Origin: Myxococcaceae bacterium
GTDB taxonomy: Bacteria; Myxococcota; Myxococcia; Myxococcales; Myxococcaceae
Direction of reading: 5' to 3'
DNA: 47,937 nt
NCBI GenBank assembly: GCA_022842905.1
Contig: JALHOS010000007.1
Coordinates: forward strand, 1-47,937
Part shown: positions 79 to 47,924 of the stretch, piece after piece
How positions within the stretch are numbered: position 1 is the first letter of the stretch
Layout: each line of letters opens with the position of its first letter
The notes under the pieces: generated by a model
What the model was told of the DNA's origin: nothing
Seen by the model: only the letters and a program-made list of their open reading frames with translations
The model's database searches: none
Made by a program: the position numbers and the translations under genes

Positions 79-82
<4 letters not shown>
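1..82 (-). CDS. Partial small membrane or exported protein (N-terminus only)
   Basis: Only the first 27 codons lie inside the window; the gene runs off the left edge. The ATG at 82-80 overlaps the TGA of the giant protein (81-79) in an ATGA junction, so translation is probably coupled. The visible peptide begins MTRFVGGIALVGAAIALAVW and continues with WRGTHAR: one charged residue, then a hydrophobic stretch long enough for a membrane anchor or uncleaved signal, then basic residues. Nothing identifies its function. Its position directly after a large surface protein suggests a role linked to that protein, but this is inference. The open frame plus the exact overlap are the reasons to call it. 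Confidence 0.6.
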
Positions 83-10506
<10,424 letters not shown>

Positions 10507-10514
10507 GGAGCGCC

Positions 10515-12371
10515 TCACTTGGTCCGCCTTTCGGGGGCCTTCGGTCCGTCAGCGGCGATCGTCACGAACAGCTCGACGCGCTGGTTTGCTGCCCGGCCGG
10601 CCTTGGTGCCGTTGTCGGCGATCGGCTTCGAGCCGCCGTAGCCGACCGCGACCAGCCGCTTGATCTGCACGCCCTTGCGCACCAGGAAGTCCTTCACCGC
10701 GTCCGCGCGGGCTTGGCTCAAGGTCAGGCTGTCGCGTTCGCCGGCCGACGTGTCGGTGTGCGCGTCGATGCGGACGACGCTGAGCTCCGGGTGTTCGTTG
10801 ATGAGCGCCGCCGTGCGCTCGAGCACCTTGATGCTCTTGGCGTCGATCACCGCGCGCTTGTCCGAGAAGACCACGGGCTCGGCCAACCGAATGCGGTTCC
10901 CGTCGAGCACCGCCAGCGGGCGGTCTTTGCAGCCCTGGTTCGCGGCGCTGCCCACTTCGCTCGCGCACATGTCGAGGCGATCGACGACGCCGTCTCCGTC
11001 GGAGTCCTTCGCCGGGCAGCCGCGGTTCTCGAGAGGACCGGGCGTGTTGGGGCACGCGTCGGTCGCGTCGGGCACGCGGTCGAGATCGTTGTCGGGATCC
11101 GGGCACCCGTCGCTGTCCTGCCAGCCGTCGAAGTCTTCGAGCTCTCGCGGACAGCGGTCGACTCGATCAGCGACGCCGTCGTTGTCGGTGTCGCGCTCGG
11201 GACACCCGTCGTTGTCCGCGCTGCCGGCGCCGTTCGGACAGCGATCGTCGGCGTCGAGCACGCCGTCGTCGTCGTTGTCGGGATCCGGGCAGCCGTCGTC
11301 GTCCTCGAAGCCGTCGAGATCTTCGCGCTTCTTCGGGCAGCGATCGGCTCGGTCGGTCAGCCCGTCGCCGTCAGAGTCCGCCGCGCCAGGATCGGGCGGC
11401 GGGGTGACGGCCTTGACGCGCCCGTCCGGCGTCGACAGGCGCACGCCAGCCACGGCGCGCAGGTCCGGCACACCGAACCCACGCACCACGCCGACGCCGA
11501 ACGCCGCGAACACCTGCACCAGCGGGTGGACGTCGAACGCGCCGTAGGCCTTGAGCTCGAGCGGGGTCTGGTTCGCCCGCGCGAAGGGCCGCTCGAGCGA
11601 GAAGCCCGTGAGCAGCGTGCCTCCGAGCTCCAGGGGGAGCTTGCTGGGGTCGACCTCGTTGAACCGGTACGCGGCGCCCAGCCGCAGCTCGAGCGCGTTG
11701 TCCACCCGCTGACTCAAGATGACGACGGGCTGCGACGTGCGGAAGCTCAGCGCCAGGTTCCCGGCCAGGCGCACGCCACCCAGCGCTTTGGACACGGCCA
11801 CCTCCGGAGCGAGGAGCGTGCCGGTCGTCCCGACGAAGCGCGCCCCTCCGCTGGTGGGGAAGGTGACGTTGAGCTGCGCCGCGAGGTCGACGACGTGCTC
11901 GCTGGCCCGCAAGATCCCAAACTTCGGCGCCAGGCGCAGATCGCCCACGCCGGCACCGGCGATCGACGGCAGGCTCGTGGTCGTCGCTCCTGGAATGTCG
12001 GTCTGTCCGGCGTTGACCCACACCAGCGGCAGCTCCAGCCCGAGCTGGAACCGCGGGCCGTAGCCGATCGCCGCGACGAGCTGAGAGCCCAGTCGGCTCT
12101 GGATCAGCGCGCCCAACCGTTTGCCGGTAGCGGGGTCTGAAACCACGACCGGGTTGTGCGCGTAGCCCAGGCTTACGCCCACGTCCCAGCTGAGCCCTTC
12201 CCGCAGCGCACCCCATTCCACGTCGAGCAGGCTCTGCCTTGAAAAGCCCAACCGCAGCCGCTCGGCCGAGTACCCCGCCTCGTACGGAACTGGGGCCTGG
12301 GCCCAGCCGCTACCGGGCGCCGCGGTCAGGACCACTGCCAGCAGCGCACCCACGTCGCGTGCGAACCTCAT
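10515..12371 (-). CDS. OmpA-family outer-membrane protein with beta-barrel and TSP3 linker (618 aa)
   Basis: It begins with a signal peptide ending SGWAQA (about residue 26). A region of amphipathic strands to about 325 looks like an outer-membrane barrel. Next comes a run of TSP3 repeats with Cys pairs (DSDGDGLTDRADRCPKKRED and similar, about 330-475), then a C-terminal OmpA domain with LSQARADAV, VGYG and NQRVEL, which in this family binds peptidoglycan. The start at 12371 gives the signal peptide; the frame stays open far upstream but without coding sense. Its TGA (10517-10515) abuts or overlaps the start of the giant protein, so the two are probably one transcription unit. It may anchor or export that partner, which is inference. 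The divergent neighbour is the bufferin operon. Confidence 0.88.
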   Translation of the reverse strand: MRFARDVGALLAVVLTAAPGSGWAQAPVPYEAGYSAERLRLGFSRQSLLDVEWGALREGLSWDVGVSLGYAHNPVVVSDPATGKRLGALIQSRLGSQLVAAIGYGPRFQLGLELPLVWVNAGQTDIPGATTTSLPSIAGAGVGDLRLAPKFGILRASEHVVDLAAQLNVTFPTSGGARFVGTTGTLLAPEVAVSKALGGVRLAGNLALSFRTSQPVVILSQRVDNALELRLGAAYRFNEVDPSKLPLELGGTLLTGFSLERPFARANQTPLELKAYGAFDVHPLVQVFAAFGVGVVRGFGVPDLRAVAGVRLSTPDGRVKAVTPPPDPGAADSDGDGLTDRADRCPKKREDLDGFEDDDGCPDPDNDDDGVLDADDRCPNGAGSADNDGCPERDTDNDGVADRVDRCPRELEDFDGWQDSDGCPDPDNDLDRVPDATDACPNTPGPLENRGCPAKDSDGDGVVDRLDMCASEVGSAANQGCKDRPLAVLDGNRIRLAEPVVFSDKRAVIDAKSIKVLERTAALINEHPELSVVRIDAHTDTSAGERDSLTLSQARADAVKDFLVRKGVQIKRLVAVGYGGSKPIADNGTKAGRAANQRVELFVTIAADGPKAPERRTK

Positions 12372-21833: not shown

Positions 21834-22748
21834 TTAAAGCGAACTGGGCGGCGGCGGTGGGGTGGTCAGTCCGTCGGGGTTCGTCCCCGGTGGGGAGGAA
21901 ACGGGCGGCTGCGGCGGCGGAGGTTGGTAGGCCGGCGGCGGTTGGTACGGCGGCGGCGGCGCCCGGTAGACGGGCGGCTGGGGCGGAGGCGCCAGCGGCG
22001 GAGGGGGCTTGGCGATCAAATCGTCGGCGAAGCGTTGCCGGCCCACCAGGAAGCCGACCTTGAACTGCACCGTCGGCACGAAGAACTGGTTGGCGTTGCC
22101 GGCGCTCCCCATCATCCCCGCCACGTTCACGCCGGTCCCGCCGATGAGCGGCACCGCCAGCCCGATCTCGGGCAAAAGCGTGAAGATGTCCTGGAAGGAG
22201 ATCGCGAAGCCCACGGTCGCACCCGGCGTCAGCACGAAGGCGCCCGCCGAAGCGCTGGACGCGCCCGCGAGGAGAAACTGCGCCATCAACCGCGGGCCCA
22301 GGACCAGCTCGTGGTGCCCGAACTTGAAGCCGATCAACACGGGGAAGTTGATCGTCCCGTAGGCGAACGCGGCGTTCGCCAGCCCGAAGAAGAAGCCGCC
22401 CACCGTCGGGTTGAGCGACACGGCCAGGTTGAGATCGTCGGGCTTGGTGAGCAGGAACTTCGCGTTCACGTCGAGCCCCGTGGTGCCGATGCGGGCGCCC
22501 AAGTCCACGCCGTCGCTCACGCCGTAGCGGGCGCCGAAGTCGATCATCGGGCCGAGCAGGAAGCTGACCGGCCCGAAGATCGTCTGCGTCCCGGCTGGAG
22601 GCAGGGCCAGGTGCACACCGGGCTCGGTGGTGAACTGGTAGTTGCCGCGGCCCATGGTGTCGGCGCGCTGCACGCCGCCGATCGACAGGCAGCTCGAGGC
22701 CACCAGCAGTGACAGCGCGACGCCCCCGCGACGGATCGTGTTCGTCAT
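21834..22748 (-). CDS. Exported lipoprotein-like protein with Pro-rich tail
   Basis: A 304-residue protein of unknown function. It starts with a signal peptide whose end, VASSC (C20), resembles a lipobox, although alanine at -3 is not ideal. Residues about 35-235 alternate hydrophobic and polar residues, with many Gly and Phe (GVDLGARIGTTGLDVNAKF, PTVGGFFFGLANAAFAYG), as in small outer-membrane barrels. The last 60 residues are a tail of PPP and QPP runs, probably an extended periplasmic or surface linker. I chose ATG 22748, because the longer frame to 22967 overlaps the caspase gene. It follows that gene by 73 bp on the same strand and may be the sixth gene of its operon. Confidence 0.7.
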   Translation of the reverse strand: MTNTIRRGGVALSLLVASSCLSIGGVQRADTMGRGNYQFTTEPGVHLALPPAGTQTIFGPVSFLLGPMIDFGARYGVSDGVDLGARIGTTGLDVNAKFLLTKPDDLNLAVSLNPTVGGFFFGLANAAFAYGTINFPVLIGFKFGHHELVLGPRLMAQFLLAGASSASAGAFVLTPGATVGFAISFQDIFTLLPEIGLAVPLIGGTGVNVAGMMGSAGNANQFFVPTVQFKVGFLVGRQRFADDLIAKPPPPLAPPPQPPVYRAPPPPYQPPPAYQPPPPQPPVSSPPGTNPDGLTTPPPPPSSL

Positions 22749-22821: not shown

Positions 22822-24438
22822 TCAAGAGTCCTGCCACGTGAGGCGAACCTCGGCGCCAATGAATGGCGCAACGGACACCAGCCGCTCAAGGCGCAAGCCC
22901 AGCACGCCCGCTCGGATCGCCAGCCCACCGAACCACCCGCGGAAGAGGTGCCGATCCCAAGCTGCACGCACGGCCGCGGCGGGAGCGCCCACGGCTTGCA
23001 CCGACCGGTAGTCGCGCGCCGAGACGTCGCGGATCACGATCGACCACGTTCCCTCGAGGCCGACTCTGATCCCGAGCTGAGGCAGCGGCAGCCATTCGAG
23101 CTGCGCGGAGAGCTCAGCGACGTGGCTTCGGAATGGCAACTGCTCGTCGATACCCCTGAGCTGACCGGTCCCGGTGAGGTACCCAACGCTCGCGCCGACC
23201 GACACGGCGCCAAACCGCCGCACGAGCTGCGCAGCCGGTCCGGCCGCAAAAGGCAGTGCGCTCAGCCGGATCGCATCGTGAAACACGAACAAGGCGCGAC
23301 CGGCGATGCCAAACGACCACCCGGGGGCGGGAGGCAATACGCTGGTCAGATCGAGCCTGTCGCCGGGCGCAAGCAGGACGGTGGTTCGGCCGAGGGTGGC
23401 GCCTGATCGCGGGTCTTCGAGCGTGATCTCGCGGCGCCCCGGACTGAGGCTCACGCCGCCGGGCAGCGTGCCCTTGACGACGCCGTCGACGCTGAGCCGA
23501 AGGCCCTCGGCGACTGGTGAGTAGCTATAGAGCACGGGCGCAGACGTGCGCACGATCTCCCCGCGGAGTACGACCGGGTCGCGACCCACGAGCTCGACCT
23601 CGGCGGTTGGGCGCTGCTCGCCTCGGGTCGTGGCGTAGGTAGCGTCGCGGGCGAAGTCGTGCGCTTCGAGTGCCGTGACGGCGCCGTCGCCATCGCGGTC
23701 CCCTCGGTCAAGAGCCCGGAGGATCCCGGCGGTGTAGATGTCATGGCCCAGCTCCTCGCTCTCCCGGGCCGTCTCTCCAAACGCACACGCCGTCAAGACG
23801 AGCAGACCTTCGGAGACCTCATGGAGGGCCGCAGCCGGCCCCTTCATTGCTCGCAATCTGTCTGCTAGCGGCTCGTCCAGTGCCGACTTCCCTTTGCCCG
23901 AATGGCACAGCGCCAAGATGAGGGCCTTTCGCCTCGCGGGGAGACCCTCGAGCAGCGACTTGAGTCGATCGACTGCGACGGCGGTCTCGGCCAACACGTC
24001 CATGCGGGTGTCGCGCGTCACGATGAAGCGTTCGAGCTTGCCGCCCGGACGACGCCCGAGCGTGCCGTGCGACGACACGTAGACGACGACGGTGTCCTGA
24101 GGATGCGTCGCTGCCGCAGCGACCGCTTCGAGCTCAGAGAGGATCGACGCCTTGAGGGTCGCGTCTGGCGCAGTCAGCACGCGGATCGTGTCGTAGCCTG
24201 TCAGGGCGTGGCCAAGCTCTCGCGCATCGGCCGCCGCGTAGCGCAGCGGTGTGAAGCGCGGATCGAGGAACGTGTCCACCCCGATCAGCAGCGCGTGGCG
24301 CCGCGGCGCGCCGCCGGCCTGGGTGACGCCCAGCGCTGCTCGTTCAATACCCTTCTCTGTCCAGCGTGGCGCGCTGCAGCTGGTGAGAACGCTCAGCGCA
24401 CCGAGCAGGAGCACGGCTGGCGGCGCAGGCTGGGTCAT
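22822..24438 (-). CDS. Caspase-fold (peptidase C14) lipoprotein with EF-hand and barrel-like C-terminus
   Basis: A 538-residue exported protein. The lipobox is LTSC (C21). Residues about 45-285 form a metacaspase-like p20 domain: HALLIGVDTF opening strand, catalytic H124 in YVSSHGTLG, and catalytic C178 in LALCHSGKG. A canonical 12-residue EF-hand loop lies at D247-E258 (DRDGDGAVTALE), inside the caspase domain. Residues about 310-360 resemble a PEGA surface domain, and about 365-538 alternate like an outer-membrane barrel. Caspase-fold proteases cut after Arg/Lys or Asp and often act in regulated proteolysis or cell death. The ATG overlaps the stop of the DUF4384-like gene (ATGA), so it belongs to the sigma-factor operon. 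The substrate is unknown. Confidence 0.82.
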   Translation of the reverse strand: MTQPAPPAVLLLGALSVLTSCSAPRWTEKGIERAALGVTQAGGAPRRHALLIGVDTFLDPRFTPLRYAAADARELGHALTGYDTIRVLTAPDATLKASILSELEAVAAAATHPQDTVVVYVSSHGTLGRRPGGKLERFIVTRDTRMDVLAETAVAVDRLKSLLEGLPARRKALILALCHSGKGKSALDEPLADRLRAMKGPAAALHEVSEGLLVLTACAFGETARESEELGHDIYTAGILRALDRGDRDGDGAVTALEAHDFARDATYATTRGEQRPTAEVELVGRDPVVLRGEIVRTSAPVLYSYSPVAEGLRLSVDGVVKGTLPGGVSLSPGRREITLEDPRSGATLGRTTVLLAPGDRLDLTSVLPPAPGWSFGIAGRALFVFHDAIRLSALPFAAGPAAQLVRRFGAVSVGASVGYLTGTGQLRGIDEQLPFRSHVAELSAQLEWLPLPQLGIRVGLEGTWSIVIRDVSARDYRSVQAVGAPAAAVRAAWDRHLFRGWFGGLAIRAGVLGLRLERLVSVAPFIGAEVRLTWQDS

Positions 24439-25094
24439 GGACCCACCGTCACGGTGGTCGGATCGGAGGTGGCCACCGATCCGTGCTGATCCAGCGGGCG
24501 CGCGCTGCCGACCAGTCGGAGTCGCCAGGTGTTCATGGAACTCGGTCGCAGCACGATTGCTCCTTCACCGTCTGCCAGCTCCTGCTCGCCGGCTTGCACC
24601 GCGTGGCCGCGCGGATCGTCCGGCCACAGTCTTCGCCACGTCCCGTTGACCTCCTCTTCGACGGCCAGCCAGGCCGCGCGCGTCGTGCTGACGCGCGCGG
24701 CGATCCGCGCGCCGACGGGGAGCGCAGTGCCCGACGCGAGGCGATGCGGCGCTGGATCTAATGCAACGAGCACGAGCGCCAGCGTCGGCTCGGCGTCGTC
24801 GCCTTTGACGCCGGTGTACTCGCCCGGGCCGAGGCGAGGCCAGGCGAGCAGCAGTGCCACCGCGCTCGCGGCGGCGACCCCGATGAGCGGCGCGAAGCGG
24901 CGCCACCACGGTGCTCGCGGAAAGGCCTCGGCGAATGCTGCCGGGAATACGTCGGGGCTCGGCGGCGCAACCCAGGCGTCGTTGAGCTGCGGCGCTGCGC
25001 TGTCGGCGTCTGAACGGAGGCGCTCGCGCAGCGCTTCCCGATCCGTCTTGGAAGCGTTGCCCTCCAGTAGCCGAGTGACGACGTCCTTCAACAC
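24435..25094 (-). CDS. Membrane-anchored DUF4384-like protein, candidate anti-sigma factor
   Basis: A 219-residue protein with one membrane segment (about 68-85, FAPLIGVAAASAVALLLAW). The N-terminal 60 residues are cytosolic and helical and lack the HxxxCxxC zinc motif of many anti-sigma factors. The periplasmic part, about 100-195, follows the DUF4384 pattern: ASGTALPVGARIAARV, then AAWLAVEEEV, LWPDDP and QAGEQEL. DUF4384 domains often accompany caspase-fold proteins. The start is GTG 25094, with GGAGG about six bases upstream; it overlaps the sigma-factor stop by 7 bases. Its position right after an ECF sigma gene makes an anti-sigma role likely but unproven. Confidence 0.68.
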   Translation of the reverse strand: MLKDVVTRLLEGNASKTDREALRERLRSDADSAAPQLNDAWVAPPSPDVFPAAFAEAFPRAPWWRRFAPLIGVAAASAVALLLAWPRLGPGEYTGVKGDDAEPTLALVLVALDPAPHRLASGTALPVGARIAARVSTTRAAWLAVEEEVNGTWRRLWPDDPRGHAVQAGEQELADGEGAIVLRPSSMNTWRLRLVGSARPLDQHGSVATSDPTTVTVGP

Positions 25095-25663
25095 CCGACA
25101 CCTCCAAGCTCGTCACCGTGGTTCACGAGATCGAGCAGGAGCGCGGCGCGCAGCTTTGCTCGGAGCCGCTGGAGCGTGACCGTCACGGTTCCGTGCGGCA
25201 CGCCAAGCTCTTCGGCCGCGGCGCGCGTCGTCATCCCTTCCACGTAGACCGCGCGGGCGATCGCCCGGTGCGCCGCTGGTTCGATGGTCGCGAGGCAGTC
25301 GCGGACGAGCTGCTCGCGCCGTTGCCTGTCGGCTTCGCCTTCGAGCGGCGACTCGAGCGACGCTTCCGTCGCGAAGGAAGTCAAGAGCTCGGCGCGGCGG
25401 TGCTCGAGGCGACCACGGCTGCAAGCAAGCGTGGTGCAGGTGCTCAGCGCCCAACTCACGAAGGCCTCGGGCCGTTTGAGTTGTCGGAGTTGTTTGAACA
25501 GGCGAACCCAGACCTCCTGCGCGAGGTCCTTCGCCGCGTCATGGTCACCACGCGAGGCGAGCAAGCACTGACGAAAGACGGGCGCCGCCGCGGCGTCGTA
25601 CAGCGATCGGGCCGCACTGCGATCGCCGCGCAGGCACGCTTCATGGAGTGATCGCCAGTTCAT
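25088..25663 (-). CDS. ECF-type RNA polymerase sigma factor
   Basis: A 191-residue sigma factor. Region 2 contains AKDLAQEVWVRLFKQL and a following promoter-melting segment (FVSWALSTCTTLACSR); region 4 is a helix-turn-helix with TTRAAAEELGVPHGTVTVTLQRLRAKL. There is no region 1.1 or 3, as expected for the extracytoplasmic-function class. I start at ATG 25663; ATG 25684 is possible. Either start lies inside the end of the upstream lipoprotein gene (23 or 44 bases), and the stop overlaps the DUF4384-like gene by 7 bases. It likely drives an envelope regulon, perhaps including its own operon; I could not identify its promoter motif. Confidence 0.88.
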   Translation of the reverse strand: MNWRSLHEACLRGDRSAARSLYDAAAAPVFRQCLLASRGDHDAAKDLAQEVWVRLFKQLRQLKRPEAFVSWALSTCTTLACSRGRLEHRRAELLTSFATEASLESPLEGEADRQRREQLVRDCLATIEPAAHRAIARAVYVEGMTTRAAAEELGVPHGTVTVTLQRLRAKLRAALLLDLVNHGDELGGVGC

Positions 25664-27203
25664 GCGCAATCCGCGAAATGTCATACCTGACCACGTGTGC
25701 CGAGCCTGTTTCGTACGCCGTCGGGTCGGCAGGATCGGCGAAGACCATCAGGCTCGAGCCGGCCAGACACGCCGGGCTGACTGCCGTCCCCAGCGTCGCC
25801 ATGGGGCGTCCCTCGCGCAGCGGCGCGCCTTCTGCGAGCAGCCTCAGCTCTCGCCCGACCCGCAGGATTTCGACGCCCGCTGGACCAGCGGGAAGGAAGT
25901 CGATCCCGGGGAAATGCAACCGGTCAGCCACGTCACGACCCAGTTCGCTCCAAGCCTGGAGCGGCCCGAGCGGAACGTCGAGGGAGCGGGCCCTGAGCGA
26001 CCCACCACGATGCTCGAAGATCGTGACGCGCCAGGTGTCTGGGTCGACCCGCTCGACGCCGATTCTCACCGACGGCGAGCGGTCGGCGCGCGGCTGGAGG
26101 AGCGCTGCAGGCGACAGGCGTGGCAGGTCGACGATCGTCACCTCGTCCAGTTCGGGATCGGCGCGAATCCACTGCATTCGCTCCGACGCGTCGACGACGA
26201 CCAACGTCGGCTGGTCCGCTGCGCCCGGCGACCATTCGGCGGGCCTACGACGCACGCCCGGAATGTGGGCGAGCGAGCGCGCGCCTTCGGGGCCGATCCG
26301 CCAGACGCCGACGCCGGCATCGTCCTCGGTGAAGAGCGTGAGGCGCGTCCCAGCCAGTGTCGGCACCATCGCGAAGGGGCGCGCGTCTAGCGCGTGGACG
26401 GTCTGCCTTGGGCCCTCCTCGGGGGTATGGATGGTCACCACGAACGTCCCACCGTCGGACGCCGCGCTCACGCACCTGCCGTTCGACAGGAGCTGGCACC
26501 GCTCGTTCAGACGCCAAACGCCGTGCGCGCTACCGTACCACTGCCCACCCAGCGCTCCATTGGCAGCTCCGTCAATGGTGAAGCCCGTGAAGGCGGACTC
26601 GGCTGCCTCCAGCGCCCTCCACCCGGTGCCCTCAGGTTGCACGCTGGTGCCCTGAACCTCGAGCGCGAAGCCAAGCCACGGCGCGGAGTGGGGCCGCAGC
26701 GAGAGGATTCCCTCGCCTGCGTCGACCGCGCCGCTGTAGGCGTCGACGCGGAGCGCCTGCTCGGTGGTGATGATCGAGATCGCGCGCTCGTTCAGGCAGC
26801 GCAGTGCGCCGCCGATTGGTGCGGCGACGGCCAGACGTTCTCCCGTCCCGACGCCGCGGAGTTCGGGCACGAGGGGGTTCAGCGCCAGAGGCGAAATCAC
26901 CCGCTCCACCCGAAGCTGTTGACCGGCGTACAGGCGGAGCGGTTCGACGAGCCCCAGGCCGCGGAAATCGTGCGCGACCAGGAGGCTCCGTCCAACGGGC
27001 GCCTCGATCACGACGCAGCCGCGCTCGTCGGTCCGCGACTCGGCGTACGGCCGACGATCGACGACCACGAACGTGGGGAGCCGGATCGCGGGCTCACCAT
27101 TGGGGCGGCGGAGACAGACCTGTGCAGTTGCAGCGCCGTACTCGGCGACAGGCTCGAAGGTCCCGCACGCGGCGAGCAGGAGTGCCGGGAGGAGTCGGAT
27201 CAT
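25641..27203 (-). CDS. Lipoprotein of unknown function upstream of the ECF sigma factor
   Basis: A 520-residue lipoprotein with lipobox LAAC (C13). Residues about 30-110 resemble a transthyretin/carboxypeptidase-regulatory beta-sandwich (RPNGEPAIRLPTFVVV, then DERGCVVIEAPVG). The remainder, about 130-520, is beta-rich with repeated short blades (for example TLVVVDASERMQWIRADPELDEVTIVD), suggesting a beta-propeller or sensor-like surface domain. Four to six cysteines could form disulfides. Its ATG overlaps the stop of the preceding lipoprotein gene (27203-27200). It shares overall layout with that neighbour, although direct similarity is weak by eye. No enzymatic motif is visible. Confidence 0.75.
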   Translation of the reverse strand: MIRLLPALLLAACGTFEPVAEYGAATAQVCLRRPNGEPAIRLPTFVVVDRRPYAESRTDERGCVVIEAPVGRSLLVAHDFRGLGLVEPLRLYAGQQLRVERVISPLALNPLVPELRGVGTGERLAVAAPIGGALRCLNERAISIITTEQALRVDAYSGAVDAGEGILSLRPHSAPWLGFALEVQGTSVQPEGTGWRALEAAESAFTGFTIDGAANGALGGQWYGSAHGVWRLNERCQLLSNGRCVSAASDGGTFVVTIHTPEEGPRQTVHALDARPFAMVPTLAGTRLTLFTEDDAGVGVWRIGPEGARSLAHIPGVRRRPAEWSPGAADQPTLVVVDASERMQWIRADPELDEVTIVDLPRLSPAALLQPRADRSPSVRIGVERVDPDTWRVTIFEHRGGSLRARSLDVPLGPLQAWSELGRDVADRLHFPGIDFLPAGPAGVEILRVGRELRLLAEGAPLREGRPMATLGTAVSPACLAGSSLMVFADPADPTAYETGSAHVVRYDISRIAHELAITP

Positions 27204-28831
27204 CGGCGCACCCGAAAGAACGCGTATGCACCGTCACCGATCGCGCCGTAGGCAATGCGAGTGTTCTCGTCGCCGAACCCCGTCGGTTGGGTCACGAAGG
27301 GACTCCTCGCGACGTCGCGGCGAACGCCGGTAAACGGGTCGACGAGTACGTACCGACCGCCACCGAGCCAGAGGACAGCGACATCCCGGTCTTGTCCGAC
27401 CAGTACTTCATCGGGGTTCAGCGGTGTCGGTCGGAGGGCAGTCAACAGGCTCACTCCGTTGTGTTGGCTCGCTTCAGTCCAGAAGCCGGCAGCGCTCGAG
27501 CAGCCGCGGCTCAAAGAGATCGTCGCGGCGTTCTCACCCAGGACCCCGGTGGCCACGTGCGTGCTCTCGTCTCCGACGTGGAGAGCTCGCAGCGGCCCCC
27601 CGGTGCTGCGGCCCTCAATCAGCGTCGTCGGAAGCTTATGGCCCGGCGTGCACGGGGGCAGGTGCCCGCCGCGCCGAAGCGACGGCGCGACGTTGACGAC
27701 CTCTCGCCGCGACGTCAGGTTCTCGACGTCGAACCGGACGATTTCGAGGTGTGGCTCCAACGAGCCGTCCACGCCCACGACCAGCGAACGGACCCCGCTG
27801 GCGCCCAGCACCAGCGGAGACCCGTCGGTGGGTCGCTGCCAGGCCACGTGTTCGCTGCGACGCACGCCGTCGCGATCGATGCGGGTCGCGGTGACACCCG
27901 ACGGGCTGGACTCCACGAGAAACACGGTTTCGCCGTCCGTGGGGACGACACGCGCCGCGGGGGACACCTCGACTGGAATCTGTCGACGGGAGGCGAGATC
28001 GTACCACCGCGTTCGCTGGCCGGCGCTCGTGACGAGCACGCCGTGGGTTTCGGACCACCGCGCCGTGCTTCCGGTCGGGACCTGTACGTCGAAGTCGATC
28101 GACCCATCGTCGACGTTGAGCCACCGAAGCCTGGTCAGGGGGCTGGTCACCGGGCCTCCTGCTCCGAACCAAGTGTACGCTCCGTCGACCAGGCCGACGC
28201 GCACGCGGCCGTCGCTGCACCGCGTAGCCCAGACGCGCAGGACGGGGGGGGGCGCGGAGCCCGGCGTTGGGCGCAGAGACGCGGGTTCTTGCCAGGGCGC
28301 GTCGACCAGCGTGCGTGTGGAGCCGTCGTCATAGACGCGCGCAACGACCAGGCGATCATGCAGATATTTCACCGTCAGGATCGGTTCGTCTCTGCTGCCC
28401 GCCCAGAGGAGCTGGACGCCGTCTTCCGGGGTGGTCAGTTGCTCGTCGTACCCCACGCCTCGCAACCAGAGCACATCGGGGTACGCCCAGACCTTCTCGA
28501 GCTCGAGCTCACCCAGGTCTGTCGTTCCGGCCGGGCGGAGGCTCAGCCCCGGTCGCCAGACACCTTCGTCCGTGTGTTCGTTCTGCAGCCCGAAGAGCGC
28601 GGCTTCTCCAGCGGGAACCTCGAGGCTGAACCTGCCTTCGACGTCGGTGACGGTCGTGGCGATCGGGCGGCGGTTTCGGACCACCGCGATCTGCGCGCCT
28701 TGTTGGGGGCCGCCGGCTCGATCGACGACACGGCCCGTGAGCGTCGCGATGCCGTCATCGGTCGTCAGAGCGCCACAGCAGCCGAGCACGGCAAGCCAAG
28801 CCAGGAGGAGGGGAGCGGAGTTTCCGGTCAT
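27200..28831 (-). CDS. Lipoprotein with carboxypeptidase-regulatory-like domain, first gene of the caspase operon
   Basis: A 543-residue lipoprotein with lipobox VLGC (C18). Residues about 28-110 match the carboxypeptidase-regulatory-like fold: LTGRVVDRAGGPQQGAQIAVV, then TDVEGRFSLEVPAGEAAL. Residues about 115-540 are beta-rich with aromatic-containing strands, repeated phrases such as RLRWLNVDDGSIDFDV, and several cysteines, as in a propeller-like sensor. The frame is open upstream to 29266 but ATG 28831 gives the lipoprotein signal. The gene starts about 150 bp from the divergent barrel gene, so the operon promoter should lie between 28832 and 28979. Its function is unknown; a surface sensor feeding the sigma factor is one possibility. 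Confidence 0.75.
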   Translation of the reverse strand: MTGNSAPLLLAWLAVLGCCGALTTDDGIATLTGRVVDRAGGPQQGAQIAVVRNRRPIATTVTDVEGRFSLEVPAGEAALFGLQNEHTDEGVWRPGLSLRPAGTTDLGELELEKVWAYPDVLWLRGVGYDEQLTTPEDGVQLLWAGSRDEPILTVKYLHDRLVVARVYDDGSTRTLVDAPWQEPASLRPTPGSAPPPVLRVWATRCSDGRVRVGLVDGAYTWFGAGGPVTSPLTRLRWLNVDDGSIDFDVQVPTGSTARWSETHGVLVTSAGQRTRWYDLASRRQIPVEVSPAARVVPTDGETVFLVESSPSGVTATRIDRDGVRRSEHVAWQRPTDGSPLVLGASGVRSLVVGVDGSLEPHLEIVRFDVENLTSRREVVNVAPSLRRGGHLPPCTPGHKLPTTLIEGRSTGGPLRALHVGDESTHVATGVLGENAATISLSRGCSSAAGFWTEASQHNGVSLLTALRPTPLNPDEVLVGQDRDVAVLWLGGGRYVLVDPFTGVRRDVARSPFVTQPTGFGDENTRIAYGAIGDGAYAFFRVRR

Positions 28832-43413: not shown

Positions 43414-46239
43414 TCAGGGGCGGGGCAGGGCGCGGAGCTCAGCGTCCATGGCCGCCGCGCGGGCGCGATCGGCACCACGGGTCAGGTACGGGCGCAGGGC
43501 CGTGAGGGTCTGGGCCCGCGCCGCTGGCGACTCGTCGAGCGTCGCGGCCCGCTCGAGGAACGCCCGAGCTTTGCCCGCATCCTTGAGCAGCGCGGCGGTG
43601 CTCGCCAGCGCCCGGAGCTCCGGTCCCAGCTCGGGGTGCGTCGAGCCCAGCCGCTTCTCGCGGATCGCCAGCGCGCGTTCCCCCAGCTCGAGCGCGCGAG
43701 GGTAGTGCTGCAGCCGCTGCGCGGCCTCCGCGAGGTTGGACAAGGTGATCGCCACGGTGAGCGTCTGGGGTCCGGCGGTGGCTTCCTTGATGCGGAGCGC
43801 CCGCTCGAGCGCCTCGACCGCGCGCTGCGGCCGGTCGGCGTCCAACAGCACGGCGCCCAGGTTGCTCAACGTCAGCGCGACCTGCTGGCTGTCGGCGCCA
43901 TGCGCGGCTTCCCGAATCTTCAGCGCGCGCTCGAGTGCCGTCTGGGCGTCGGCGAGCTTGCCTTCGGCCTTGGCCAGCGTGCCGATGTTGTTCCACGCCT
44001 CGCCGACGGCCGGGTGCGACTCGTCGAGTGACTGGGTGTCCGCGGCCAGCGCGAGCCGGTACTCGTCCATGGCGTCGGCGTAGCGGCGCTGCGCTTTGTA
44101 GATGAGTCCCAAGTTCTGGTGGGTGCGCGACACGAGCGGGTGGCTGGGCCCGTAGAGCTTGCTCCGGAGCGCCAGCGCCTGCTTCTGGAGCGCGGCGGCG
44201 TCGGCGAGCTGCCCGCGGGTGCGCGCGAGCTGCGCCCGGTTGTTGAGCAGCGCCGCTTCCGCCGCCTCCGAAGGGGCCCGCTGCAGCGCCGCCTGGGCGA
44301 AGCGCACCCACGAGTCGGCTTGGGCGGGGTCGACGCTCGACAGCGCCGCCAACCCGACGCGCTCGATCCACAGGGTGGCCTCGAGCTCGGCCTCGGCGGC
44401 GGCCATGGCCGTGGCGATCGCGACTTCGAACTGCGCGGCCGCCTGGGTGTACTCCCCGGCTCGAGAAGCGGCGATCGCCTGCCAGGTCGCGGCTTCAGCG
44501 GCCAGCCCACGGTCGTCCTGCGCCGACGCTTCGGCCGCCAGGGACTGCAGCGGCTCGGCTACGCCCCGGTACTTCCCGCTGTCGATCAGGGCTTGGAGCT
44601 CGGCGAGCTTGCGCCGCAGCTGATCGTGCTCGGCTCGCTGTGGTGCGGCCGGGGCGGCGAGCTGGCACCCGTCGACGCTCGGCAGGCTGCTGACGGTCCC
44701 GATCGCGCGCTCGACGACCTCGGCGTCGGCGTTGGCGAACAGCCGCGTCACCGCCTCGAAGTGCATCAACCTTCGTCCCAGACAGAGCACCTGGCGCGCG
44801 GCGCGCTCGTCGTCGAGCTTCGCCTCACACACACTCCGGCGCGCACCCCTCCACGCAGCCGCGTACTCGGTCAGCGCGCTCTCCGCCTGTCGCCAGGAGC
44901 CCGCCGCCCAGGCCTTGCCCGTCCCCAGGAAGGCCTGCTGCATGTCCCGGCGCGCCTGCTCGTTCCACGCGGCGTCCAGACGGTCGGTCACCTGGGCGCA
45001 CCGCTGCCGATCGCGGGCGACGAGGCCGACGGCGGCCGCGGTGAACAGCGCGACCAGGCCCACCCCGAGGGCGACGCGCCGCCGCCGCCGGCCCTCATCA
45101 CGGGCGCGGCGCAGCTGGACCGTGACCGGCCCCAGGGAGCTGAAGCGCGCCAACGGGTCGGCCGACAGCCCGCGGCGCAGCACCTCGAAGAAGCGCCCCG
45201 GCACCGTGGTCTCGCGCGGCGGCGGCCGCAGCTGGCCCGACTCGATCTCGGTGAGCAGCTCCGCCGGGGTCGTGCCGGCAAAGGGGCGCTGGCGATAGAG
45301 GCCTTCGTAGAGCGCCACGCAGAAGCTGAAGACGTCGGAACGGAAGTCGGTGGCGCGGCCGTGCAGCGCTTCGGGCGCCATGTACGCGGGCGTGCCGAGG
45401 ATCGCCCCGGGGGCGGTGATCGCCCGCCGCAGCGACGTCGACGATTCGCTGCTCTCGGTCGACGAGGACGCCTTGGGCTTCTTCTTCGGTTCGACGCGGG
45501 CGTGGGCCAGGCCGAAGTCGCCGACCCGCGCGCGCCCGCCCTTCGAGACGATCACGTTCTCGGGCTTGAAGTCTCGGTGGGTGATCCCGGCGTCGTGTGC
45601 GGCCGCCAACCCGTCGCCGGCCTGGAGGAAGATCTCGAGCACCTGCTTCCAGCCCGGGGCCCGCTCCAGCCAGTCCGCCGCGTTGATCCCGTCCACGAAC
45701 TCCATGGCGAGGAACAGCTTGTCGTTGGCGATGCCCGCGTCGTGCACCGTCACCACGTTCGGGTGTGCCAGCTGGGCCATGGCCTGGGCTTCGCGCAGCA
45801 GCCGGTCGCGCAGCTCCACGCCGAGCGCACCCTCTTCGAGCTCGGCGCGCATGAGCTTGAGCGCCACCTTGCGATCGAGCGTGGGATCCCACGCGGCGTA
45901 CACCTCGCCCATGCCCCCTCGGCCGACGCGGTTGAGCAGCACGTAGCGATCGAGCCGACGCGAAGGGTCGTGCGTGAGATCGCTGACGGTGGGCCGCCGG
46001 GGCTCCCCGGAGATCGCGGTGTCGAGCAGCGACGACACTTCGGCCGCGGTGACCTCGTCTGGTGGCGTGGCCCTCCCATTCCCGACGGACCGTTCGGTGG
46101 CGCCGAGCCCGTCGAGCTGCGCGACGAACGTCTGGCAGGCGCCGCACGAGTCGAGGTGGCGCTGGAGCTGTTGGCGTTCGGCCTCGCCCACTGCGCGGAG
46201 GGCCAAGGCTTCGAGTCGTCGCTGCGGTGGGCACCCCAA
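43414..46239 (-). CDS. Ser/Thr protein kinase with zinc-finger-like N-terminus and TPR sensor (941 aa)
   Basis: Residues 1-45 form a zinc-finger-like segment (C3, H28, C32, C35), as at the N-terminus of many anti-sigma factors. The kinase domain (about 99-380) has GRGGMGEV (P-loop), K128 in VALKLM, catalytic D223 in HRDFKPEN, and D241 in DFG. A single membrane helix at about 388-408 is followed by TPR repeats (about 640-930), with NLGLIYKAQRRYADAM and NIGTLAKAEGKLADAQ blocks, so the TPR domain would be periplasmic. I chose TTG 46239, with GAGGG upstream, because it places the Cys motif at the N-terminus; the frame is open further upstream without coding sense. Confidence 0.88.
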   Translation of the reverse strand: MGCPPQRRLEALALRAVGEAERQQLQRHLDSCGACQTFVAQLDGLGATERSVGNGRATPPDEVTAAEVSSLLDTAISGEPRRPTVSDLTHDPSRRLDRYVLLNRVGRGGMGEVYAAWDPTLDRKVALKLMRAELEEGALGVELRDRLLREAQAMAQLAHPNVVTVHDAGIANDKLFLAMEFVDGINAADWLERAPGWKQVLEIFLQAGDGLAAAHDAGITHRDFKPENVIVSKGGRARVGDFGLAHARVEPKKKPKASSSTESSESSTSLRRAITAPGAILGTPAYMAPEALHGRATDFRSDVFSFCVALYEGLYRQRPFAGTTPAELLTEIESGQLRPPPRETTVPGRFFEVLRRGLSADPLARFSSLGPVTVQLRRARDEGRRRRRVALGVGLVALFTAAAVGLVARDRQRCAQVTDRLDAAWNEQARRDMQQAFLGTGKAWAAGSWRQAESALTEYAAAWRGARRSVCEAKLDDERAARQVLCLGRRLMHFEAVTRLFANADAEVVERAIGTVSSLPSVDGCQLAAPAAPQRAEHDQLRRKLAELQALIDSGKYRGVAEPLQSLAAEASAQDDRGLAAEAATWQAIAASRAGEYTQAAAQFEVAIATAMAAAEAELEATLWIERVGLAALSSVDPAQADSWVRFAQAALQRAPSEAAEAALLNNRAQLARTRGQLADAAALQKQALALRSKLYGPSHPLVSRTHQNLGLIYKAQRRYADAMDEYRLALAADTQSLDESHPAVGEAWNNIGTLAKAEGKLADAQTALERALKIREAAHGADSQQVALTLSNLGAVLLDADRPQRAVEALERALRIKEATAGPQTLTVAITLSNLAEAAQRLQHYPRALELGERALAIREKRLGSTHPELGPELRALASTAALLKDAGKARAFLERAATLDESPAARAQTLTALRPYLTRGADRARAAAMDAELRALPRP

Positions 46240-46266
46240 GCGGCCCTCAGTGTATCGTCGCCGGCC

Positions 46267-46734
46267 ATGACCGACGTGAGGACTTTGAAGCTGGCCACTG
46301 CGCCCGTGGCGCTCGAGCAGCTGCGGCAGTTCATCACCTACCAAGAAGCGCTCGTGGCCCAGCTCCAGAAGAGGCAAGGCGCGGACTGGGCGGGCGCCTT
46401 CGCCTTCGCGCACGCGGAGGCGGCCAAGGTGAGCGGGCTGAGCGGTGGGGCGGAGCAGCGCCTGCGGCCACTCGTGGCGGACTTCGCGGGACGACGGGCC
46501 GCCGCCGCCGAAGTCCGCGCCCGCATCGCGAGGGCCGAGCTGTCCGCCGAGCGCCGGCAGCAGGCCGAACGTGAGGCCAGCCGGCGGGACGATCTGACCG
46601 ACTTCATCGAACGCTACGGCGAGGCGACCACCCAGCTGCTCCGCGAGCACGAAGCGACGCTCGTCGCGCTGCACCAGCAGCTGGCCAAGCTCGAGGGGAC
46701 TGGGCACGTTCACCCGCTCGGCTCCGCGAGTTGA
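46267..46734 (+). CDS. Helical, coiled-coil protein of unknown function (155 aa)
   Basis: A 155-residue soluble, mostly helical protein. Charged heptad-like stretches (ARIARAELSAERRQQAEREASRR, about 95-120) suggest coiled coil. No signal peptide or domain is recognised. It is divergent from the kinase with only 27 bp between starts and is followed by miaB after 34 bp. A TATCGT box (46253-46258) lies eight bases before the ATG and no ribosome-binding site is seen. It may be a partner of the kinase, which is speculation. Confidence 0.7.
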   Translation: MTDVRTLKLATAPVALEQLRQFITYQEALVAQLQKRQGADWAGAFAFAHAEAAKVSGLSGGAEQRLRPLVADFAGRRAAAAEVRARIARAELSAERRQQAEREASRRDDLTDFIERYGEATTQLLREHEATLVALHQQLAKLEGTGHVHPLGSAS

Positions 46735-46768
46735 CTTCCACCGAGCGCGCAGCGCAGAAGGCGCCCCC

Positions 46769-47924
46769 ATGAAGCGGTACTTCATTCACACCTTCGGCTG
46801 CCAGATGAACGTCAACGACACGCTGCGCATGGGCGAGGCGCTCGCGCGCGTCGACTACCGGCCCACGCCCGTCGCGGACAACGCCGACCTCATCATTCTG
46901 AACACCTGCGCCATTCGCGAGCGCGCCGAAGAGAAGATGTTGTCGGCCCTGGGGCGCTACCGGCAGCTCAAGCTCCAGCGCGGCGCGCTGATCGGCGTCG
47001 GAGGCTGCGTCGCCCAGCAAGAGAAGGGGAAGATCCTCGAGCGGGTGCCCTACGTGGACTTCGTGTTCGGCCCGGACAACATCCAGAAGCTGCCCGACGT
47101 GCTGCGCCGCATCGAAGAAGACCGCGTGCGCGTCGTGGAGACGGCCTGGGTCGACAGTGAGGCCTACGTCTTCCCGCAAGCAGACCCGGACTCGTCCCGC
47201 GGCAAGACGACGGAGTTCGTCACCGTGATGAAGGGCTGCGACAACGTCTGCTCGTTCTGTGTGGTGCCGCACACGCGCGGCCGCGAGGTCAGCCGCCCGT
47301 TCCCTGAAGTCCTCAAGGAACTCGACGCGCTGGTGCAGGTGGGCGTGCGTGAGGTGACGCTGGTCGGGCAGAACGTGAACAGCTACCGGGGCGGGGTGAG
47401 CTTCGCGCAGCTGCTGCTTCGAGCGGCGCACGTGCCCGGCCTCGAGCGCGTGCGCTTCACCACCAGCCACCCGCACGATCTGTCCGACGAGCTGATCGAC
47501 GCGTTCCGGGTCGAGCCCAAGATCATGCCGCACTTCCACCTGCCGGTTCAGTCCGGCTCCGACGAGGTGCTGCGGCGCATGAAGCGCGACTACACGGTGG
47601 TGCAGTACCTCGAGCGCCTCGACAAGCTGCGCGAAGCAAGGCCCGGCATCGCGGTCACCACCGACATCATCGTGGGCTTTCCGGGGGAGTCCGACGCCGA
47701 CTTCGAGAAGACGCTGGAGCTCGCCGCGCGGGTCCGCTTCGACGGCCAGTTCGCGTTCGTGTTCTCGCCGCGCCCCAAGACGGTCGCGGGCCTCAAGGAA
47801 GACGAATGGGGGCCGGTGCCGCACGACGTCAAGGTCGCGCGCCTCGAGCGGCTCAACCAGCAGCAGAAGCAGATCAGCGCGGAGCTGATGCAGCCGAACG
47901 TGGGGGCCACGGTCGAGGTGCTGG
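46769..47924 (+). CDS. miaB: tRNA-i6A37 methylthiotransferase MiaB, 3' end missing
   Basis: The first 385 residues of MiaB, which attaches the methylthio group to i6A37 in tRNA. The N-terminal cluster cysteines are C11, C47 and C80; the radical-SAM motif is C157, C161 and C164 in GCDNVCSFC. The TRAM-like C-terminal domain is just beginning when the contig ends. The frame continues into the last 13 bases, but there the residues leave the expected VLVEG pattern because the bases are adapter. ATG 46769 is the natural start. Confidence 0.93.

Follow-up and report, generated by a model that had tools for sequence, protein, structure and literature searches.

A candidate caspase-driven ECF sigma factor switch across the cell envelope, encoded by an overlapping five-gene operon of a Myxococcaceae bacterium

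We present here a five-gene operon that is best explained, with moderate confidence, as a caspase-driven ECF sigma factor switch acting across the cell envelope. The operon lies on the minus strand (28831-22822) of the window, a stretch of 47,937 nucleotides that is one whole contig of a 7.85 Mb draft genome, and each of its genes, A to E, overlaps the next (Table 1). Genes A and B share 4 bases (27203-27200), the ATG of C at 25663 precedes the end of B at 25641, C and D share 7 bases (25094-25088) and D and E share 4 (24438-24435). This end-to-end overlap, an ECF sigma factor gene and a caspase lipoprotein had all been claimed in a preliminary description of this DNA, and all three held. In the proposed mechanism, D would hold the sigma factor C at the inner membrane via a cytoplasmic anti-sigma domain, as its architecture and relatives suggest, and E is predicted to sit in the outer membrane, held by lipid and barrel, and to have its caspase domain on the periplasmic side. 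When a signal arrives, perhaps by way of lipoproteins A and B, E would cut D after Lys97, in a flexible linker close to the outer face of the inner membrane; D would then be further degraded, probably by a site-2 protease, and the sigma factor freed. Site-2-type metalloproteases are indeed present in the genome. Pointing towards such a switch are the sigma-D-E adjacency kept across families, the predicted architecture of D and the invariant Lys97; counting against it are a window D without zinc ligands, a half-matched E pocket and a negative promoter search. If the reading is right, a large set of this phylum's bacterial caspases would gain a defined partner and a single cutting site, a caspase-based route would be added to envelope-to-transcription signalling, and caspase-type cleavage would serve bacteria for signalling, not death.

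Table 1. Positions in the window of the five genes and of the features predicted within D and E.
Feature	Coordinates	Strand	Basis
Gene A, lipoprotein, 543 aa	27200..28831	-	CarboxypepD_reg-like domain, residues 30-77
Gene B, lipoprotein, 520 aa, A family	25641..27203	-	Homology to A/B-type lipoproteins
Gene C, ECF sigma factor, 191 aa	25088..25663	-	TIGR02937, Sigma70_r2, r4_2
Gene D, anti-sigma factor by architecture, 219 aa	24435..25094	-	AlphaFold2 model, zinc-motif relatives
D Lys97-Gly98 codons, predicted cutting site	24801..24806	-	Invariant column, disordered linker
Gene E, lipoprotein caspase with C-terminal outer-membrane-type barrel, 538 aa	22822..24438	-	PF00656, model, fold search
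E Lys29-Gly30 codons, linker after lipobox Cys21	24349..24354	-	K in 49/49 E proteins
E caspase domain, residues 44-296, catalytic His124 and Cys178	23551..24309	-	Dyad, MALT1 fold match
E eight-strand barrel, residues 373-536	22831..23322	-	NspA/OmpW fold matches

The sigma factor is the most readily assigned product. C matches TIGR02937 at 9.2e-20 (70.9 bits, cut-off 42.9), and Sigma70_r2 and r4_2 are both above cut-off; with regions 2 and 4, no region 3 and a length of about 190 aa, it has the layout of an ECF sigma factor, and an alternative in-frame start lies at the ATG at 25684. No ECF-like -35/-10 pair was found upstream of the window operon, and the promoter search gave no clear conserved upstream block across eight relatives. 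Lipobox-type signal peptides can be read from the sequences of A, B and E. Residues 30-77 of A match Pfam PF13620 just under the cut-off (3.2e-7), and B has no Pfam match of its own but is homologous to the A/B-type lipoproteins of loci L072, L110 and L116. A profile of the A/B family found a propeller peptidase weakly (best E 0.0075); the remainder of A might possibly be a beta-propeller, and with matches of this strength alone we did not adopt that fold for A and B.

E is a Peptidase_C14 protein (PF00656, 8.7e-13, 48.9 bits, cut-off 21.4). In its AlphaFold2 model (mean pLDDT 82.8), the caspase domain resembles those of MALT1 (Z 18.1, rmsd 3.0, 192 aligned residues) and metacaspase-4 (Z 16.4, rmsd 4.3, 206 aligned), and the His-Cys dyad, His124 and Cys178, is invariant in 24 aligned E proteins. 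The C-terminus of the predicted model forms an eight-strand barrel that matches NspA (Z 17.2, rmsd 2.6, 149 aligned), OmpW (Z 17.2, rmsd 2.6, 160 aligned) and OmpA (Z 16.6, rmsd 2.6, 156 aligned). Since it is a lipoprotein with a predicted OmpA/OmpW-like eight-strand barrel, E is probably an outer-membrane caspase. The preliminary description had called it an exported caspase; the caspase lipoprotein stands, but simple export gives way to a predicted place in the outer membrane. The C-terminal aromatic beta-signal is absent in the window E, which ends TWQDS; most of its relatives end GYRF or similar, the usual terminus of barrel proteins.

D is built like a membrane anti-sigma factor. Its AlphaFold2 model (mean pLDDT 77.8) places four helices, assigned to the cytoplasm (residues 2-10, 16-28, 30-40 and 49-57), before a TM helix (65-83) and a beta-sandwich assigned to the periplasm, which is the DUF4384-like part, and its gene adjoins that of the ECF sigma factor; an N-terminal helical domain followed by one TM helix in such a position suggests an anti-sigma factor by architecture. 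The relatives carry an N-terminal H-x3..5-C-x2-C zinc motif (HxxxxCxxC), one TM helix and a DUF4384-like domain. The zinc motif was found by pattern in 46 of 52 listed D proteins, a list in which the L121 row is the sigma factor gene, and its ligands are present in 48 of 51 homologues when aligned without L121. In the window D the motif is lost, with R25, A30 and A33 at the ligand positions, and the pattern is also missing from D of L119 and L120. Anti-sigma domains without zinc exist. The D profile matched the anti-sigma factor DdvA weakly, at the zinc motif (E 0.035), and some members of the D family match zf-HC2 and DUF4384. The earlier claim that D holds the sigma factor thus gains an architecture, from relatives and model, that would suit sigma binding; its DUF4384-like label stands for 5 of 30 aligned relatives (best 5.3e-8) but not for the window D itself, which has no DUF4384 (PF14326) match of its own. 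A fold search with D returned generic beta-sandwich matches alone (best Z 8.3) and barely probed the helical domain.

A purpose-written codon-based gene finder was used to read the genes around E homologues. Almost all of the loci read have the sigma-D-E order, and neighbouring genes usually overlap or are separated by a few bases. The exact A-B-sigma-D-E order, overlaps included, was seen three more times, in two genomes from one distant family: G077 has two copies (L072 and L116) and G075 one (L119), and all three keep the 4-base A/B overlap. Three further loci (L043, L110 and L111) have A-sigma-D-E, and L120 has A-B-E with sigma-D divergent. Two operon types can be told apart: most loci of the window's own family have a smaller lipoprotein after E, with a TTR-like start (CarboxypepD_reg-like, by eye), and the second type has A/B-like lipoproteins ahead of the sigma factor gene. 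The expectation that the gene order is kept in relatives was therefore borne out, but as a five-gene unit the operon holds in part: C-D-E is constant and the lipoproteins vary in number and position. The E profile matched in 162 of 195 genomes from the phylum; many of these matches are more distant caspases whose neighbours were read in part. The sigma-D-caspase core is in most genomes of the window's family and is also met repeatedly elsewhere in the phylum. In the window genome it occurs in four operons (C7, C140, C65 and C42), the window copy and three others. Plasmids gave partial caspase-domain matches alone, viral contigs gave no relatives by the two patterns used, and a single genome-contig scan returned one locus. 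A more distant sigma-D-caspase class (L069, L070, L071, L074, L075 and L076) has caspases with an ordinary signal peptide, without the Lys-Gly (KG) motif found near the lipid anchor of E and mostly with an aromatic final residue like barrel proteins; its D proteins retain the lysine.

The predicted cutting site in D is marked by its conservation. Lys97 is the sole invariant column among 51 D homologues, of which the first 30 have about 16-27% identity to the window copy, and its conservation exceeds that of the zinc ligands; the next residue is Gly in 49 and Ala in 2. The lysine lies 12 residues beyond the TM helix in the window copy and mostly 10-17 in the others, in a linker that AlphaFold2 leaves disordered (pLDDT under 50). 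A similar motif occurs in E, also in a stretch of very low pLDDT: all 49 rows have a lysine 6-27 residues past the lipidated cysteine, and the residue behind it is Gly in 48 rows and Ser in the other. Among these rows, L042 and L107 are the same locus counted twice, the KG of L121 and L122 comes after a signal sequence that lacks a clear lipobox, and KG in L050, L108 and L117 was read by eye. The E lysine (Lys29) is invariant in alignment A1, and the residue after the D or E lysine is always small. All of 30 further close relatives have KG in both proteins; in the matching stretch of other predicted lipoproteins it occurs in 5 of 114. In the control set, KG is missing from all 17 single-span zinc-finger proteins whose fetched locus lacks a caspase. 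The sole such protein with a caspase in its locus has it, and so do all 13 DUF4384 single-span proteins, 10 of which have a caspase in the fetched locus. As the members share ancestry, these counts speak of constraint and not of independent support or origins.

The suggestion that the caspase may cut the anchor has thereby acquired a concrete predicted site: E would cut D between Lys97 and Gly98, releasing the sigma factor. An unlikely alternative makes the caspase an output, in which sigma and D turn on their own operon by way of another protease and E then processes other envelope proteins. One operon gives co-expression whichever step comes first, and the associated lipoproteins could be targets of E; however, such an output leaves unexplained both the invariant lysine of D and its absence from caspase-less zinc-finger membrane proteins. 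In the switch that we prefer, the linker lysine of E may in turn be a self-cleavage site, whose use would detach E from its lipid or activate it; this is the weaker proposal, because the barrel would still keep E in the outer membrane. We put forward more tentatively, and with some doubt, a widespread relay in which an outer-membrane caspase, reaching over the periplasm, cuts an inner-membrane anti-sigma factor at its invariant lysine and uses a similar motif for its own processing. If true, one protease would both mature and trigger transcription.

Whether E has the specificity for such a cut is less clear. C14B caspase relatives (the group of MALT1 and the metacaspases) are reported to cut after basic residues, with a pocket of two aspartates, Asp95 and Asp211 of TbMC2 (PMC6426788). 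The counterpart of Asp95 in E is the invariant D71, and the Asp211 position is an alanine; the lysine specificity of E is uncertain because just one of the two aspartates has a counterpart. The KG motif could be a docking site, or be cut by another lysine-specific protease from the cell, its prey or a competitor, with D and E as co-substrates or partners. That the motif sits beside the membrane anchor in both proteins would fit this reading, as would the half-matched pocket, but the motif tracks caspase linkage in the control set, and D of the distant class retains it alongside a non-lipidated caspase; we consider the reading quite unlikely. A supposed basic cleavage residue of the Runella gasdermin was dropped as a supporting case, as a review gives Leu247 (PMC9079055).

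The window copy of the operon was likely acquired horizontally, as its codon usage and the E tree suggest. Its GC3 is 0.795 (range 0.77-0.81) compared with 0.916 +/- 0.023 for the other genes of the window (Mann-Whitney p 2.5e-5), in agreement with the relaxed codon use at 22.8-28.8 kb, and the possible transfer, that had been noted by eye. Low GC3 is not a property of this operon class, since the C140 operon of the same genome has 0.90-0.95; the five-gene operons of G077 and G075 have 0.71-0.81. An E tree built with a quick method groups the window copy in a nine-locus clade (SH-aLRT 100) whose members come from scattered families; where the upstream genes are readable, all are of A/B type, and the clade stands apart from the family's own, which holds C140. 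No empty insertion site was found in relatives, where different contigs carry the two flanking genes. The likely transfer, together with a weak PADLOC 'caspase' match (1.2e-5), would suit a module for defence or cell death, with a caspase that kills or arrests the cell and the sigma factor as a side branch. We regard this as very improbable: the core is in most genomes of the family, E resembles an outer-membrane protein, none of the five genes has another defence match, and the viral contigs held no relatives by the patterns used. E also scores 93 bits against the EACC1-associated caspase NF047832, below its cut-off of 140.

The openly licensed literature searched gave no description of this gene set, and earlier notice of the neighbourhood is possible. 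In the sigma E system of E. coli, the inner-membrane RseA is cut first in the periplasm, by the inner-membrane serine protease DegS, and then within the membrane; in FecA/FecR/FecI, a TonB-dependent outer-membrane transporter signals by contact to an inner-membrane anti-sigma factor. The proposed switch resembles RseA/DegS/RseP in having an inner-membrane anti-sigma factor with a periplasmic cut before an intramembrane one, but its first cutter would be an operon-encoded outer-membrane caspase and not DegS. Like FecA/FecR/FecI, it would let an outer-membrane barrel protein signal to an inner-membrane anti-sigma factor, but with a small eight-strand barrel joined to a protease in place of the TonB-dependent transporter.

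Three other systems link sigma factors to caspase-like or caspase-clan proteases. In the CASP system of type III-E CRISPR, formed by Csx29 (TPR-CHAT), Csx30 and CASP-sigma and triggered by RNA through Cas7-11, a caspase-like protease cuts a sigma inhibitor and so switches transcription, much as is inferred here (PMC10028731). However, the window protease is a Peptidase_C14 with a lipid anchor and barrel and without TPR, its inhibitor is a one-span membrane protein, and there are no CRISPR/Cas proteins, neither TPR-CHAT nor Cas7-11, among the five genes. ECF54 sigma factor genes also stand beside caspase-clan protease genes, adjoining CHAT, subtilase and carboxypeptidase genes, and are proposed to work without an anti-sigma factor (PMC8999054), whereas here the anti-sigma factor is always present and Peptidase_C14 replaces CHAT. 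Lastly, EACC2-caspase loci share a neighbourhood of caspase and ECF sigma genes, with DUF1822 genes, and signal-induced caspase activation has been proposed for them; the EACC2 proteins have other domains, and the portion of the source drawn on here mentions neither an anti-sigma factor nor a barrel (PMC8195603).

Directly downstream of the operon sits a lipoprotein-like gene (21834-22748, minus strand) whose closest paralogue (54% identity) lies directly downstream of the C42 sigma-D-caspase operon of the same genome (C42:9434-10240), which might reflect coincidence or a shared regulon. Elsewhere in the window, a minus-strand frame at 43414-46785 encodes a protein of 1123 aa that has Ser/Thr kinase and TPR domains and, around residue 200, a weak zf-HC2 match; the frame may be non-coding in its upstream part. 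A further minus-strand gene, at 79-10518, has a product of 3479 aa, predicted to be secreted and carrying TSP3 repeats, and sits in a region of strong AT skew.
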